The notes under the pieces are model-generated. The model was not told where the DNA came from, did no database searches, and saw only the letters and a program-made list of their open reading frames with translations. Made by a program: the position numbers and the translations under genes. A DNA stretch of 47,767 nucleotides, taken from NCBI GenBank assembly GCA_026195895.1, contig JAPHRO010000051.1, positions 1-47,767 of the forward strand. The letters are read 5' to 3'. This document shows positions 15,995 to 41,467 of the stretch, piece by piece (within the stretch, counting starts at the first letter, position 1; every line of letters starts with the position of its first letter). This stretch comes from Gammaproteobacteria bacterium. Its GTDB lineage: Bacteria; Pseudomonadota; Gammaproteobacteria; SZUA-229.

Positions 15995-17356
15995 CTAATT
16001 TGACGGGGCGCTGTCATCATCACCATGCGTAACGGATAGATCCTTAAGTGTTCGCCCTTGAAGAGATTTTTTAATCGCATCTTCCATTGCCAACAGAACA
16101 TCAGCTATTTCAGGTTCTGGTTTAACACTGGCCGATGAAAGATTACTGCTTTCTCCTGATGAGCGAACCGATGATATTATTTCATCCAGCGTCAGTGTTT
16201 CAATATCATAGGCAGGCAGATAAGTTGCTGGTGACTCGGAGGTTTCTGTCAACAACCTGGCTTTCACCAGTCGCTCAACCAGCAACGAACAAACTTCAGC
16301 ACTTACCCCCATATGTTCGGCAAGTGTATCAATAGACCATGCGGGCCGATGCAAATGATAATGTCGCCCTATCAGCAGCATAATATTTAAAGCCAGGCTT
16401 TCACGCAGACGGTTACTTAATCTAACTACACGTGAACCTAGATGCCGATGTGATGGTTGCTGATGATAAAAAACAATACTGCAACCGATTAATAAAATCA
16501 GCCAGTTTACATACAGCCAGATAAAGAAAATAATCAGCGTTGCAAAAGCAGAATAGATAGCCGTGTATTTGGCCGATGTGACCACAAAGGCAGCAAACGC
16601 CCAGCTTGCTGTTTCCCATAAAATTCCCGCAACGATTGCACCAACCAGTGCCGATTTTATTTTTACCCTGGTATTCGGCACGAACACATAAACAAAAGTA
16701 AAGGCGCAAATCACCAGCAGATATGGCACTAGCCGCCCAAAAAATTTGACCATAAAACCAATGGTTTCCATTTCCATGGCTTCCTGTATTAATGCGAGAT
16801 TGGAAACCGATGCAGTTACCCCCAGTGCAGAAAATAATAATACAGGCCCAATAAGAACCACCGTTAAATAATCGCTGAACCGCTGCCCAATGGGTCGGTG
16901 ATGGGTTACCCGCCAGGTATAATTAAAAGCGCGCTCAATTTTTTGCAGCAGTGATACCACCGTGTACATTAGCAACGCCAGTCCTAATGTTCCCAGCACA
17001 CCCGCTTTGGTATTATCGACAAATTCAATGATTTTTGCCGTCACTTCTGCCCCCTTCTCGCCCAGTGGCTGAAAAAGGCTGAGCAACATGGGTTCCACCT
17101 GGTTATGCACACCAAAGCCTTTTAACACGGAAAAGCTGACCGCAAGCAGTGGAACCAGCGCTAGAATGGTTGTGTAAACCAGGCCCATGGCCCGGAGCGT
17201 TATCATGCCATCCAGTAAATCACGAATAATTAAATGCGTGATTCGAAGCCCGGTAACCAGATTACTTCGCGCAACTGACATTGTATCCTGCGAAGTTTGC
17301 CAGACATTTTCCAGATAAAAACGTTTTAAAAACCTGAAATTGAGTTTTGTTTTCAT
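15995..17356 (-). CDS. YihY/BrkB family inner-membrane protein
   Basis: A 453-residue membrane protein. Residues about 40-310 carry the six-TM YihY/BrkB region (formerly annotated as RNase BN), including the R-A-M-G-L-V-Y-T-T-I-L-A-L-V-P-L opening, E-R-A-F-N-Y-T-W-R-V, and a Y-x-A-I-Y-S-A-F-A-T-L block. About 140 more cytoplasmic residues follow, containing a winged-helix-like segment (SIDTLAEHMGVSAEVCSLLVERLVKARLL) and an acidic Ser-rich tail. The substrate is unknown. It converges on ptsP with about 45 bases between the stops. Confidence 0.9.
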   Translation of the reverse strand: MKTKLNFRFLKRFYLENVWQTSQDTMSVARSNLVTGLRITHLIIRDLLDGMITLRAMGLVYTTILALVPLLAVSFSVLKGFGVHNQVEPMLLSLFQPLGEKGAEVTAKIIEFVDNTKAGVLGTLGLALLMYTVVSLLQKIERAFNYTWRVTHHRPIGQRFSDYLTVVLIGPVLLFSALGVTASVSNLALIQEAMEMETIGFMVKFFGRLVPYLLVICAFTFVYVFVPNTRVKIKSALVGAIVAGILWETASWAFAAFVVTSAKYTAIYSAFATLIIFFIWLYVNWLILLIGCSIVFYHQQPSHRHLGSRVVRLSNRLRESLALNIMLLIGRHYHLHRPAWSIDTLAEHMGVSAEVCSLLVERLVKARLLTETSESPATYLPAYDIETLTLDEIISSVRSSGESSNLSSASVKPEPEIADVLLAMEDAIKKSLQGRTLKDLSVTHGDDDSAPSN

Positions 17357-19370: not shown

Positions 19371-19805
19371 TCAGGCAACATCTCTGGCCGATGCCGCCAG
19401 TTCATGCGCCTGCTGCTTCATCAAAGCAACAATCGCATAAATACCCACATGCCGATTGGGTGATAAATGCTCAGCAAGATGCAAACGTTCAAATAACTCA
19501 TCGACATCAAGCTGATCAATTTCTTTAGCTGATTTTCCAGCAACGAGCTGTATTAAAATAGCAAGCACACCACGAATGATGCTGGTATCACAATAACCAT
19601 AAAACTGAATCTGCTGTGGATTTTCGGTATCACGGTAGGCATAGACATAAACTGTACTCATACAGCCTTTGACATGGTTTTTTTCTACCAGCAACTGTGC
19701 CGGCATGGCAGGCAGTTTTTCACCCAGCTCCATGATGTAATTATAGCGTTGATCCCAGTCTCCCAGCAGCTCGAAGACTTCAACCAGATCATCAAGACGA
19801 CTCAT
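19371..19805 (-). CDS. sufE: cysteine desulfuration protein SufE
   Basis: A 144-residue sulfur acceptor. The active Cys48 sits in N-H-V-K-G-C-M-S-T-V-Y, the SufE signature, and the L-H-L-A-E-H-L-S-P-N-R-H-V-G segment near the end is also typical. It takes persulfide sulfur from the cysteine desulfurase SufS and hands it to SufB. SufS is not encoded in this cluster, so SufE must work with a desulfurase from elsewhere. It follows sufT by about 23 bases. Confidence 0.93.
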   Translation of the reverse strand: MSRLDDLVEVFELLGDWDQRYNYIMELGEKLPAMPAQLLVEKNHVKGCMSTVYVYAYRDTENPQQIQFYGYCDTSIIRGVLAILIQLVAGKSAKEIDQLDVDELFERLHLAEHLSPNRHVGIYAIVALMKQQAHELAASARDVA

Positions 19806-19828
19806 CTACTTCCCCTGTTTTAACATAG

Positions 19829-20224
19829 CTAAAATAACCCCAGCTCCAGCCTGGCTTCATCACTGATAGATTGTTGAGTCCAGGGTGGATCCCAGACCAG
19901 GTTTACATTGACTTCATTTACACCGTCCATTGCTTTAATTACATCGGCTACCTGTCGAGGCAAAATTTCAGCTACCGGACAGGCTGGCGCCGTCAGCGTC
20001 ATATCAACATCCACATTGACTTCATCTTTAATACTGATGTTATAGATAAGGCCGAGATCATAGATATTGATATGGATTTCTGGATCATACACGGTACGTA
20101 TCGCTGCAATGACCTGTTGCTCCAGTGACGTGTTAGCCGATGACTCAACCGGGCCAGCAAACACATTCTGTTGCTCCTCAACATTTCGTTTATCTTTAAA
20201 AAAAACGCGCTTAATATCCATCAT
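19829..20224 (-). CDS. sufT: SufT (DUF59/MIP18-type) Fe-S maturation protein
   Basis: A 131-residue protein with one DUF59 domain: V-Y-D-P-E-I-H-I-N-I-Y-D-L-G-L-I-Y, T-L-T-A-P-A-C-P-V-A and V-W-D-P-P-W-T, with the conserved Asp and the reactive Cys in APACP. SufT acts as an accessory maturation factor in Suf-dependent Fe-S assembly. The frame extends to 20245, but the ATG at 20224 (or 20221) follows an AGGTGG site lying within the end of sufD, overlapping the sufD stop, so it is preferred. Confidence 0.92.
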   Translation of the reverse strand: MMDIKRVFFKDKRNVEEQQNVFAGPVESSANTSLEQQVIAAIRTVYDPEIHINIYDLGLIYNISIKDEVNVDVDMTLTAPACPVAEILPRQVADVIKAMDGVNEVNVNLVWDPPWTQQSISDEARLELGLF

Positions 20225-21599
20225 GTCCACCTGCGCCTGGATCATTTTTGTTCAGCGCATGCATTAGTTTTTCCGCAACATGCTTTTGTAACTCGGGAAG
20301 CGCTATGTCATCAATAATTTCAGCGGCATAGCCCTGACATAAAATTTTTCGTGCTTCATTTTCTGCTATGCCACGGGAACGCAAATAAAACATCTGTTGT
20401 TGATCAAGCTTGCCCACCGTGGTGCCATGACTACATTTCACATTGTCTGCATAAATTTCCAGTTGTGGCTTGGTATCAATTTCTGCATCAGCGACTAACA
20501 ACAAATTATCATTGATCAGTGCCGCATCACTAAATTGCGCCTGTTTATCAACCAGAATTCTGCCATCAAAAACCGCCCGACCCTTGCCATATAAAATTCC
20601 TTTAAAATGTTCACGGCTGCGACACGATTCCGCCCGGTGCTGAACATCGAGATGAAAGTCAATGAGCTGCTGATTGTCTACCGCATACAGGCCATTCAAA
20701 TCACAAATAGCAGCTTCAGCCCTGAAATCGACTTTGTACTCGGTTCTTGCCCAGGCGCCACCAAATGCCAGGTTAGAACTGTGATAAGCGCTGTGTTTCT
20801 TCTGCGTTACATATAAACTACTCAGGTGATATGCCTGTCGACTTTCATCTTGCACACGGCAATGATTGAGTTCGGCATCATCAGCCAGAGATATTTCACT
20901 AACGTTATTGTAAAAATAGGTTTCATTATTGCCTGTGCCGGAACCGTTAATAAAGCGCTCCACCAGCGTTGCACTGGCACCGACATCCAGAGAAATAATT
21001 GTTCGCGTTTGTATCATGCTGCCAGCATATTGTGCTGACTGCGAATGGTTGTTATTTAAATAAATAACCTCAACAGGACGATCCAGATGAACTGACCGAT
21101 CCAGATGAAGATAGACCCCATCATTGAACAGCGCATTATTCAGGGCGGTAAACATATATTCATTGTGCTGATGATTCCGATCAAACCAGTGAATCATTTT
21201 CTCAGGCATTGATCGCAGTCCCGCCTTAACACTTCCCAGCGTCACGCCTTCGGGCAACTGCTTAATATCTGACAGCTTTGTCGCACAATGACCGTTAATA
21301 AAAACCAGTCGATAACTATCAAATGCGGGCAATAAATAGTCATTAATATCCGGCTCGATTATGTCATTATCAAAATCCGATGAGGAATCGAAATTAATAT
21401 CAAAAATATCGTTTACTCGATTGTAGCGCCATGCCTCCTGTTTGCTGCCAAGCGTTGGCAAAGTTTTTATGGCGCGTTTTGCATCATCTCTAAGTCTATA
21501 CAACCATGCCATATTACTATCCGGTGACACGTCACTACGCGTCAGTAACTGCTGAAACCAGTCGCGCTGCTGTTGTTGACGTTGTTGGGCGGTGGTCAT
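20211..21599 (-). CDS. sufD: Fe-S scaffold subunit SufD
   Basis: A 462-residue subunit of the SufBCD scaffold. The central part is the beta-helix with repeated short strands; the C-terminal part has the H-R-A-E-S-x-S-x-E/R-x-x-x-K-G-I-L-type block (QHRAESCRSREHFKGILYGKGRAVFDGRILV) and K-C-S-H-G-T-T-V-G-K-L-D, with the conserved His and the R-G-I-A-E-N-E-A-R-K-I-L segment. It pairs with SufB. Its start overlaps the sufC stop (ATGA) and its stop overlaps the sufT start. Confidence 0.94.
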   Translation of the reverse strand: MTTAQQRQQQQRDWFQQLLTRSDVSPDSNMAWLYRLRDDAKRAIKTLPTLGSKQEAWRYNRVNDIFDINFDSSSDFDNDIIEPDINDYLLPAFDSYRLVFINGHCATKLSDIKQLPEGVTLGSVKAGLRSMPEKMIHWFDRNHQHNEYMFTALNNALFNDGVYLHLDRSVHLDRPVEVIYLNNNHSQSAQYAGSMIQTRTIISLDVGASATLVERFINGSGTGNNETYFYNNVSEISLADDAELNHCRVQDESRQAYHLSSLYVTQKKHSAYHSSNLAFGGAWARTEYKVDFRAEAAICDLNGLYAVDNQQLIDFHLDVQHRAESCRSREHFKGILYGKGRAVFDGRILVDKQAQFSDAALINDNLLLVADAEIDTKPQLEIYADNVKCSHGTTVGKLDQQQMFYLRSRGIAENEARKILCQGYAAEIIDDIALPELQKHVAEKLMHALNKNDPGAGGHDGY

Positions 21600-22348
21600 G
21601 CTGCATCCTCTTCAATAATCCAGTTATAACCTTTCTGCTCCAGTTCAAGCGCAAGCGCTTTATCGCCTGATCGCACAATACGACCGTTGACTAATACATG
21701 GACAAAATCCGGCTGTATATATTCGAGCAGGCGCTGATAGTGGGTAACTAAAATAATTGCACGTTCAGGGTCGCGCAGACTGTTAACGCCTTGCGCAATA
21801 ATACGCAGCGCATCTATATCAAGACCGGAATCCGTTTCATCAAGAATTGCCAGTTGCGGCTCCAGCATGGCCATCTGCAAGATTTCATTACGTTTTTTTT
21901 CGCCACCGGAAAAACCCACATTCACATTTCGTTTGAGTAATTTTTCATCCAGTTGCAATAATTTGGCTTTTTCACGCACCTGCTGTAAAAATTCAATCGC
22001 ATCCAGCGCATCTTCATTTCGAGCACGCCGTATTGCATTGATGGATTCGCGCATAAATATCATGTTGTTGACACCGGGCAACTCAACAGGGTATTGCATG
22101 GCGAGAAACACACCTTTATGCGCCCGTTGTTCAGGCGTCAGTTCGAGCAGGTTTTCACCATTCAATAACACCCGGCCTTCGATAACTTCATAACCTTCCC
22201 GCCCGGCCAGTACATGAGACAGGGTGCTCTTGCCCGAACCGTTTGGTCCCATGATGGCATGCACTTCACCGGGCCGAACATTCAAATTAAGACCATTGAG
22301 AATCTGTTTATTTTCTACCTTTACTATTAAATCTTTAATTGTCAGCAT
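21596..22348 (-). CDS. sufC: Suf ATPase SufC
   Basis: A 250-residue soluble ABC ATPase. Walker A G-P-N-G-S-G-K-S-T at 34-42, signature F-S-G-G-E-K-K-R-N, and Walker B L-A-I-L-D-E-T-D-S-G-L-D are intact. The ATG at 22348 matches the usual M-L-x-I-K-D-L start and has GGAG about 10 bases upstream; the frame runs 10 codons further upstream into the space before sufB. It drives conformational change of SufBD during cluster assembly. Confidence 0.95.
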   Translation of the reverse strand: MLTIKDLIVKVENKQILNGLNLNVRPGEVHAIMGPNGSGKSTLSHVLAGREGYEVIEGRVLLNGENLLELTPEQRAHKGVFLAMQYPVELPGVNNMIFMRESINAIRRARNEDALDAIEFLQQVREKAKLLQLDEKLLKRNVNVGFSGGEKKRNEILQMAMLEPQLAILDETDSGLDIDALRIIAQGVNSLRDPERAIILVTHYQRLLEYIQPDFVHVLVNGRIVRSGDKALALELEQKGYNWIIEEDAA

Positions 22349-22391
22349 GGCTACTCTACTCCACCTGTCTGTTTTCAATTCATTAAGTCAT

Positions 22392-23849
22392 TTAACCCAC
22401 TGCGCCTTCCAGGGTAATGCTCAATAACTTTTGCGCCTCTACTGCAAATTCCATCGGCAATTCTTTAAACACTTCTTTACAGAAACCATTAACGATCATG
22501 GATACCGCATCTTCTTCCGATAACCCGCGTTGACGGCAGTAAAACAACTGGTCATCACTTATTTTTGAGGTGGTCGCTTCATGCTCGACTTCGGCATTCG
22601 GATTCATGACTTCGATATAAGGAAAGGTGTGCGCGCCGCATTTGTCCCCCAGCAACAGAGAATCACACTGAGTGTGATTTCGTGCACCCTCTGCGCGTTT
22701 CGACATACGCACCAGTCCACGATAGGTATTCTGCCCTTCACCCGCAGATATGCCTTTGGACACAATGGTGCTGCTGGTATTGCGACCAAGATGCAGCATT
22801 TTAGTGCCGGTATCAGCCTGTTGCCGACCACGGGTAACTGCGACTGAATAAAACTCACCCACAGAATCATCCCCCGACAGAATACAGCTCGGATATTTCC
22901 AGGTAATCGCTGAACCGGTTTCCACCTGGGTCCAGGAAATGTGTGAGCGTTTACCCAGACAAATGCCACGCTTGGTAACGAAATTGTAGATGCCACCCCG
23001 ACCCTGCTCATCACCGGGGTACCAGTTCTGTACCGTGGAATATTTAATAGCGGCATCGTCCATGGCTATCAGTTCAACCACAGCGGCATGCAACTGATTT
23101 TCATCGCGCGTCGGTGCCGTGCAACCCTCCAGGTAACTTACATAGCTGCCAGCTTCGGCAATAATTAATGTGCGTTCAAACTGACCGGTATTCGCCTCAT
23201 TGATACGAAAATAGGTGGATAATTCCATTGGACAACGAACACCTTCCGGCACATAGACAAAGGTACCATCGGTAAATACCGCGGCATTAAGGCAGGCATA
23301 AAAATTATCGGTATAGGGCACCACCGATCCCATGTATTTCTTTACCAGTTCCGGATACTGCTGAATAGCCTCGGACAGAGAACAGAAAATCACCCCGGCT
23401 TCGGACAATTTTTCACGGAAGGTGGTAGCTACGGAGACACTGTCAAACACGGCATCGACTGCCACGCCCGCCAGCGCCTGCTGCTCCTGCAGGGGGATAC
23501 CCAGCTTGTTGTAGGCATCCAGCAAAGCGGGATCAACTTCATCCAGGCTTGCCAGACCGGGTTTTTTTCTGGGTGCGGAATAATAGGAAATGGCCTGGAA
23601 ATCGATATCCGGATGTTTCACATGCGCCCATTCGGGATCTTCCATGGTTAACCAGCGCTGATAGGCTTTCAGGCGCCAGTTCAGCACCCACTCCGGCTCA
23701 TTTTTGCGGGCGGATATGCTTCGAATAACATTTTCATCGAGCCCCACCGGCAGGGTATCTGACTCAATGGGGGTAACAAAACCGTGCTGATAACTGGCCT
23801 TGATCAGGTCATCGACAGAAGACTGGACATTTTTTGGGGTCGAACTCAT
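22392..23849 (-). CDS. sufB: Fe-S scaffold subunit SufB
   Basis: A 485-residue scaffold subunit, first gene of the suf operon. It shows S-Y-L-E-G-C-T-A-P, the [20 protein letters not shown] block and [11 protein letters not shown], with conserved cysteines and the M-V-N-G-F-C C-terminal motif. Length is normal. The ATG at 23849 opens M-S-S-T-P-K. A palindrome resembling an IscR type-1 site lies 20 bases upstream. No iscR/sufR-type repressor gene is next to it in the window. Confidence 0.95.
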
Positions 23850-23868: not shown

Positions 23869-23893
23869 ATTCCCGAGTAAAATACTCAGGTAT
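23869..23893 (-). promoter_or_regulatory. IscR type-1-like operator before sufB
   Basis: A 25-base near-palindrome: read on the minus strand, ATACCTGAGTA, then TTT, then TACTCGGGAAT. It agrees with most positions of the E. coli IscR type-1 consensus as I recall it (ATA-S-YY-GACT...AGTC-RR-S-TAT), differing at the centre of each half (GAGT for GACT). It ends 20 bases before the sufB start, a position suited to repression. Core CCGAGTAAAATACTC on the plus strand recurs upstream of arsC/yffB at 41059. Confidence 0.7.
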
Positions 23894-35790: not shown

Positions 35791-35804
35791 ATTTGGAGAC
35801 CACG

Positions 35805-36629
35805 ATGAGCGATTTACAAAAAATCATCGAAGAAGCATTTGAACACCGCGCGGACATCACGCCCCGCAATGTAGAAACCCGGGTTAGTGAAGCCGTTGAA
35901 GAAGTCATCATGCTGCTGGATTCAGGCCAGGCCCGTGTTGCCGAGAAAAAAGATGGCGACTGGATCGTTAACGAATGGCTGAAAAAAGCCGTACTGCTGT
36001 CATTCCGCATTAACGACAACGAATTTATCAAAGGTGGCTTCACCAACTACTACGATAAAGTACAATCCAAATTTGCCGACTACAACTCACGTGATTTTCG
36101 TGAATCCGGCGTTCGCGTTGTCCCGCCTGCAACGGCTCGCCATGGCTCCTATATCGCACCAAGCACCGTATTGATGCCATCGTATGTGAACATCGGCGCT
36201 TATGTGGATTCTGGCACCATGGTTGATACCTGGGCGACAGTCGGCTCCTGCGCGCAAATTGGAAAAAATGTTCACCTGTCCGGCGGCGTCGGCATTGGTG
36301 GCGTACTGGAACCACTACAGGCAGCGCCAACAATTATCGAAGACAACTGTTTTATCGGTGCCCGCTCAGAAGTGGTTGAAGGTGTTATCGTTGAGGAAGG
36401 TTCTGTTATTTCAATGGGTGTTTACATTGGTCAGAGCACCAGGATTTTTAATCGTGAAACAGGTGAAGTTACTTACGGCCGCATACCTAAAGGCTCTGTT
36501 GTTGTATCTGGCAACCTGCCATCAAAAGATGGTACTTACAGTCTGTATTGTGCCGTTATTGTGAAACAGGTCGATGAAAAAACTCTGAGCAAGGTTGGCA
36601 TTAACGAACTGCTTCGCTCAATCGACTAA
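35805..36629 (+). CDS. dapD: tetrahydrodipicolinate N-succinyltransferase DapD
   Basis: A 274-residue left-handed beta-helix acyltransferase, the same length as E. coli DapD. Hexapeptide repeats run from about residue 105 to 230 ([21 protein letters not shown]). Typical blocks include [16 protein letters not shown] and S-E-V-V-E-G-V. The ATG at 35805 follows GGAG by 7 bases; the frame is open slightly further upstream. A terminator follows. Confidence 0.95.
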
Positions 36630-40759: not shown

Positions 40760-41113
40760 GTCTGCAAGTTAAATTCCTGGGCGCATAGAAATTTGCTATT
40801 GTGTTAGCGCACCTGTTAACAATGTCAATTAATACGGACATTTGATCCGTTGTCGCTTATAAATGCTCGATTATTCGCGACACACAAAAGCTCAGCTTTT
40901 CTGTTAAAGCAGACGACTGATATTGTATTTCTCAGTTCCAGCTAATGATTGAAAACAAGCATTTAGGCAAACTATGCCTGTATGAATAATTAAAGTGATT
41001 ATTCTAGCCAGATACTTGCTTACCCCGGTTTATTTACATTACCAATATATCTATTCACCGAGTAAAATACTCGACCTATATATTAAAACCCTCTTAAGAG
41101 TTGATTCAAAACC
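40760..41113. other. intergenic region before arsC/yffB
   Basis: About 354 bases between the serine hydrolase and arsC/yffB. It contains the palindromic IscR-like box at 41056-41080. No gene was seen. Confidence 0.5.
41056..41080 (+). promoter_or_regulatory. IscR type-1-like operator before arsC/yffB
   Basis: CACCGAGTAAAATACTCGAC contains a perfect CGAGTA-AAA-TACTCG palindrome. Its 15-base core CCGAGTAAAATACTC is identical to the site before sufB. It ends about 34 bases before the gene start. Confidence 0.6.
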
Positions 41114-41467
41114 ATGATTAAGTTATACGGCATACCTAATTGCGACACCATAAAAAAAGCTAGAAAGTGGCTAACTGACAATAATATTAAATATGAATTT
41201 TATGATTATAAAAAACAGGGCGTGCCCGAAAAAGCGCTTAAGAAATGGATTAAACAGCTTGGCTGGGAAATATTACTAAACAAACGAGGTACTACCTGGA
41301 GAAAGCTTGACGACACCACTAAAAACAGCATAGATCAGACATCTGCGATTCAGCTAATGCTGGACTATCCCAGTATAATTAAACGCCCGGTACTGGATCT
41401 GGGCAATAAATATGAAGCAGGCTTTACAGCAGAGAAATATCAGCAGTTGTTCGAAAATAAAACATAG
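41114..41467 (+). CDS. ArsC/Spx-family reductase, YffB-like
   Basis: A 117-residue thioredoxin-fold protein of the ArsC/Spx family. It opens with L-Y-G-I-P-N-C-D-T-I-K-K-A-R-K-W-L (Cys10) and has the N-K-R-G-T-T-W-R-K-L segment and I-I-K-R-P-V-L near the end, typical of the YffB/ArsC-like group found near dap genes in many gammaproteobacteria. There is only one N-terminal Cys (no CXXC), so it is unlikely to be a classical Spx. The exact reaction is unknown. It is preceded by an IscR-like palindrome and stands in front of the convergent ATPase gene. Confidence 0.9.
   Translation: MIKLYGIPNCDTIKKARKWLTDNNIKYEFYDYKKQGVPEKALKKWIKQLGWEILLNKRGTTWRKLDDTTKNSIDQTSAIQLMLDYPSIIKRPVLDLGNKYEAGFTAEKYQQLFENKT

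Follow-up and report, generated by a model that had tools for sequence, protein, structure and literature searches.

The type-1 operators of IscR in the isc promoters of Escherichia coli and Pseudomonas aeruginosa share the consensus ATASYYGACTRWWWYAGTCRRSTAT (PMC3899308), and IscR residues C92, C98, C104, H107, and E43 have been implicated in cluster binding and type-1 discrimination (PMC3899308). The suf genes of E. coli and Yersinia carry a type-2 site, at which IscR activates (PMC4055776). Among the ArsC/YffB-like reductases, the structure of Brucella YffB has been solved (PMC3169414), and Salmonella yffB has been listed as up 2.6-fold without Fur (PMC3212961). A search of open-licence papers found no description of a link between IscR and ArsC/YffB. 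Such a link was proposed in the initial annotation of the stretch of DNA analysed here (the window; 47,767 nucleotides, contig C7 of a genome searched over 3.33 Mb in 84 contigs), on the grounds that one 15-mer, CCGAGTAAAATACTC, precedes both sufB and an arsC-like gene. Were it to hold, Fe-S homeostasis would gain a connection to a reductase whose role is unclear. The analysis presented below makes it likely that the site before sufB is a working IscR type-1 operator and that the 15-mer before arsC is a chance match to the inner palindrome of the motif, standing outside that regulon.

The suf operon and its operator

The suf operon lies on the minus strand in the order sufB-sufC-sufD-sufT-like-sufE, with no intervening sufS. 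Its first gene, sufB, occupies 22392–23849 (TIGR01980/PRK11814), and the remaining genes extend over 19371–22378, comprising sufC (21596–22378), sufD (20211–21599), a sufT-like SUF_assoc gene (19829–20245), and sufE (19371–19805), all assigned with Pfam and NCBIfam. Upstream of sufB, on the same strand, a 25-mer at 23869–23893 fits the 25-bp palindrome ATASYYGACTRWWWYAGTCRRSTAT in both its inner and outer parts, with GAGTA/TACTC allowed, and matches all six of the outer positions. The site scores 31.6 bits, where the maximum is 35.3, on a position weight matrix of 61 family sites found before iscR and sufB, which included the two iscR1 sites of the source genome and left out its sufB and arsC sites. 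On a held-out model of 53 iscR sites from relatives only, trained without the source genome on sites that had been selected using the 61-site matrix, the score is 31.0 bits. Few genomes of the family carry sufB, and a type-1 site precedes the gene in each of the five relatives whose sufB promoter could be read. Both the held-out score and this conservation bear out the resemblance to the IscR type-1 site that had been noted originally. To judge from its sequence, 23869–23893 is a genuine, conserved IscR type-1 operator, and as such it belongs clearly, and without peculiarities, to a known class of sites.

The site would be bound by [2Fe-2S]-IscR at the suf promoter. Because it belongs to the type-1 class, the direction of control is expected to be repression, as described for isc (PMC3899308). 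Thus, when clusters are plentiful, [2Fe-2S]-IscR would repress sufBCD-T-E, and when clusters or iron run short, IscR would release the suf operator. The sufB site would then add a clear further case of IscR type-1 control, exerted on suf besides isc, in a host from a largely uncultured gammaproteobacterial family.

IscR proteins and type-1 sites across the genome

As had been noted from the window, no canonical IscR gene is found within it, and the prediction that the regulator is encoded elsewhere proved correct: the organism possesses Rrf2-family regulators in the form of two full IscR-type proteins, encoded on contigs C53 and C62. Both paralogs keep C92, C98, C104, H107, and E43, and they score 204.3 and 199.5, just below the NCBIfam IscR equivalog cut-off of 207.55. 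The iscR gene on C53 is followed by an apparent iscS start (read by eye) and that on C62 by a second cysteine desulfurase-like gene, so that genes of this type adjoin both iscR genes and none is present in the suf operon.

Near the suf operon, a YihY/BrkB-family membrane protein (15995–17356, minus strand) has a degenerate Rrf2-like C-terminal domain, which lies below the Pfam cut-off and contains a single Cys. As a candidate regulator this domain was set aside, being below the family cut-off in a genome with two canonical IscRs.

Occurrences of the motif were counted genome-wide by pattern searches, with chance rates obtained by simulation. The sequence GAGTANNNTACTC is found four times, namely before sufB, before arsC, at a site on contig C42, and once within an ORF on C58. 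A looser inner pattern, YYGASTRWWWYASTCRR, which was chosen post hoc with the sites already seen, has nine matches, and the pattern read backwards has none. Apart from the arsC site, the eight matches to YYGASTRWWWYASTCRR consist of six promoter sites with high full-motif scores and two sites within ORFs, the latter being about the chance level (~1 per genome, a rate drawn from few simulated hits). The motif is not spread at random through the genome; the genes before which it stands include iscR, erpA, and others concerned with Fe-S or sulfur. The anticipated presence of the same motif at isc, suf, and Fe-S genes was confirmed before sufB, erpA, iscR1 (two type-1 sites), and iscR2 (one site), and of the 30 iscR promoters compared in the family, the genome's own among them, 29 have one such site or two.

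Further type-1 sites lie upstream of a TusE/DsrC-like sulfur relay gene (contig C27:73070–73092; L115) and of an unannotated gene for a 71-residue protein (contig C40:33753–33775; L011). On contig C13 (L010/L056), a type-1 site at L010 1501–1523 stands before three small genes (~1553 to 2743), whose products of 79, 151, and 105 amino acids have no assigned function and whose genes occur together in most of the relatives compared. Pfam returned no match for the 79- and 151-residue proteins, and NCBIfam returned none for the 79-residue protein. The gene for the latter is present in 48 of 54 family genomes, and a type-1 site lies directly upstream of the cluster in 11 of the 13 relatives that could be read. 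The three-gene cluster is likely to be a new IscR-controlled operon and is a better lead than the arsC link. The top-scoring type-1 site seen in the genome (32.8 bits) is at C42:3393–3415 (L009 1501–1523), with no long ORF within 180 bases, and may serve a gene for a small RNA or a short peptide. The 240-bp stretch at this position was found only in this genome; matches elsewhere cover little beyond the operator.

The 15-mer before arsC

Within the window there are exactly two copies of the 15-mer CCGAGTAAAATACTC, at 23873–23887 and 41058–41072; the initial annotation had the number of copies right and placed the second one base off, at 41059–41073. Its statement that each copy lies 20–35 bases from a start codon holds for sufB, where the distance to the ATG (minus-strand ORF start at 23849) is 23 bases, and fails for arsC, whose ATG at 41114 is 41 bases away. 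By a rough estimate, ~2 pairs like this one are expected in 48 kb when both strands are counted, and consequently a 15-mer shared within such a distance has no significance on its own. Its significance is instead judged by motif fit, genome-wide behaviour, and conservation.

The arsC gene (41114–41467, plus strand) encodes an ArsC/YffB-like reductase (PRK10853, 148.7 bits with a cut-off of 121). The operator look-alike before it, at 41054–41078 on the plus strand, is palindromic and consensus-like over its inner 17 bp only, where it matches YYGASTRWWWYASTCRR exactly, and its flanks, TTCA and CCTA, mismatch the outer type-1 flanks ATA...TAT. The description of both copies as lying inside type-1-like palindromes is accordingly true of the full 25-mer at sufB and, at arsC, of no more than the inner 17 bp. 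On the 61-site matrix the inner 17 bp contribute +19.9 bits, a score like that of real sites, and the eight flanking bases −14.4, giving a total of 5.6 bits.

The position of the look-alike is best considered together with that of dapD (35793–36629, plus strand; TIGR00965 and synteny). Judged by the DapD C-terminal motif, arsC directly follows dapD in 33 or more of 40 relatives, whereas in the window the two are ~4.5 kb apart with other genes between them, and because of this separation arsC needs a promoter of its own. A putative promoter, TTACCA-N18-TAAAAT, is located at 41039–41068 on the plus strand and agrees with the sigma-70 consensus at 9 of 12 positions. Its TAAAAT box forms the middle of the supposed operator, and the same arrangement of putative −35 and −10 elements is kept in the relative G052. 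An alternative, TTCACC-N17-TATATA (41054–41082), agrees at 8 of 12 positions and is not kept in G052. The look-alike thus sits in the promoter region and overlaps either putative promoter, and its bases would best be read as the −10 region of the promoter belonging to arsC itself.

Taken alone, the inner 17-bp match is mildly unusual, since only 0.1 to 0.2 chance matches to YYGASTRWWWYASTCRR are expected in the 5′ intergenic DNA of the genome (a simulated rate from few hits that takes the intergenic DNA to total 200 to 400 kb). An exact inner match of such rarity, inside a promoter and overlapping whichever of the two arsC uses, could reflect a weak but real operator for IscR, which this lineage would have acquired recently, once arsC had been uncoupled from dapD. 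The ArsC/YffB-like thiol reductase would then have joined the IscR regulon by way of a minimal operator without the outer type-1 flanks and would be co-induced with Fe-S assembly. We regard this as improbable. The site matches one of the six outer positions, whereas at least four are matched by each of the 53 training sites and by the nine other sites tested from the genome. Moreover, its full-motif score is at the chance level: chance alone should yield about 68 sites scoring at least 6 bits in 3.33 Mb. On the held-out model it reaches 6.3 bits, the training minimum being 19.0.

Conservation, compared here with relatives beyond the genus, also argues against a recently gained operator at arsC. 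Within 250 bases upstream of arsC in 40 family relatives no site was found (best score −0.8 bits), and on these grounds an orthologous regulon site was rejected. A set of 80 further homologues, taken from named genomes that in part belong to the same family, gave a best score of 1.3 bits and no core palindrome before arsC. Across 369 genomes of the class, TACTC at 20–50 bases upstream of an ArsC start matching the pattern used was found only in the window and TAGTC in none; this pattern fixes part of the ArsC start, so that genomes with divergent starts go uncounted and the search yields no denominator. The syntenic loci are equally devoid of a site. In G052, where arsC has the same neighbours as in the window and the promoter can be aligned, GAGTAAAATACTC corresponds to GCGTAAAATACTG, in which the palindrome is broken and which scores −7.7, and the aligned promoter of G050 retains still less of it. 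The stretch GTAAAATACT shared with G052 was considered as a trace of an operator and rejected, as the palindrome in G052 is broken and what is shared can be read as a −10 box.

It is very unlikely that the palindrome CGAGTAAAATACTCG, although perfect over 15 bp and placed between the promoter elements, is the operator of another regulator with its own specificity, such as the Rrf2-like domain of the YihY/BrkB protein (for which we know of no DNA target), given that the window should by rough estimate contain about a dozen perfect palindromes with 6-bp arms, that this one is unconserved in the syntenic promoters, and that the domain falls below its family cut-off.

A chance look-alike is therefore probably all that the arsC sequence represents, and for this reason the proposed regulatory link is unsupported. 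Co-regulation of the ArsC/YffB-like gene with Fe-S assembly does not agree with a site that lacks the outer halves of the motif, has a chance-level full score, and is absent from all relatives examined. The case illustrates how misleading even an exact 15-bp operator match can be if the comparison stops at the inner part of a 25-bp motif.

Comparison with described IscR and YffB systems

The reductase encoded at 41114–41467 is a full-length member of the YffB/ArsC family (PRK10853). It differs from its relatives in its setting, as these mostly lie directly after dapD and the window gene is separated from it by ~4.5 kb. The sufB site resembles the isc type-1 operators in length, symmetry, its A/T-rich centre, and its outer ATA/TAT flanks (PMC3899308), and the P. 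aeruginosa iscR sites likewise have GAGTA/TACTC in place of GACTA/TAGTC (PMC3899308). The type-1 operators in this comparison stand at isc, whereas the site in the window stands before suf. The suf operon in E. coli combines a type-2 site with activation (PMC4055776), whereas the suf operon of the window is preceded by a type-1 site.
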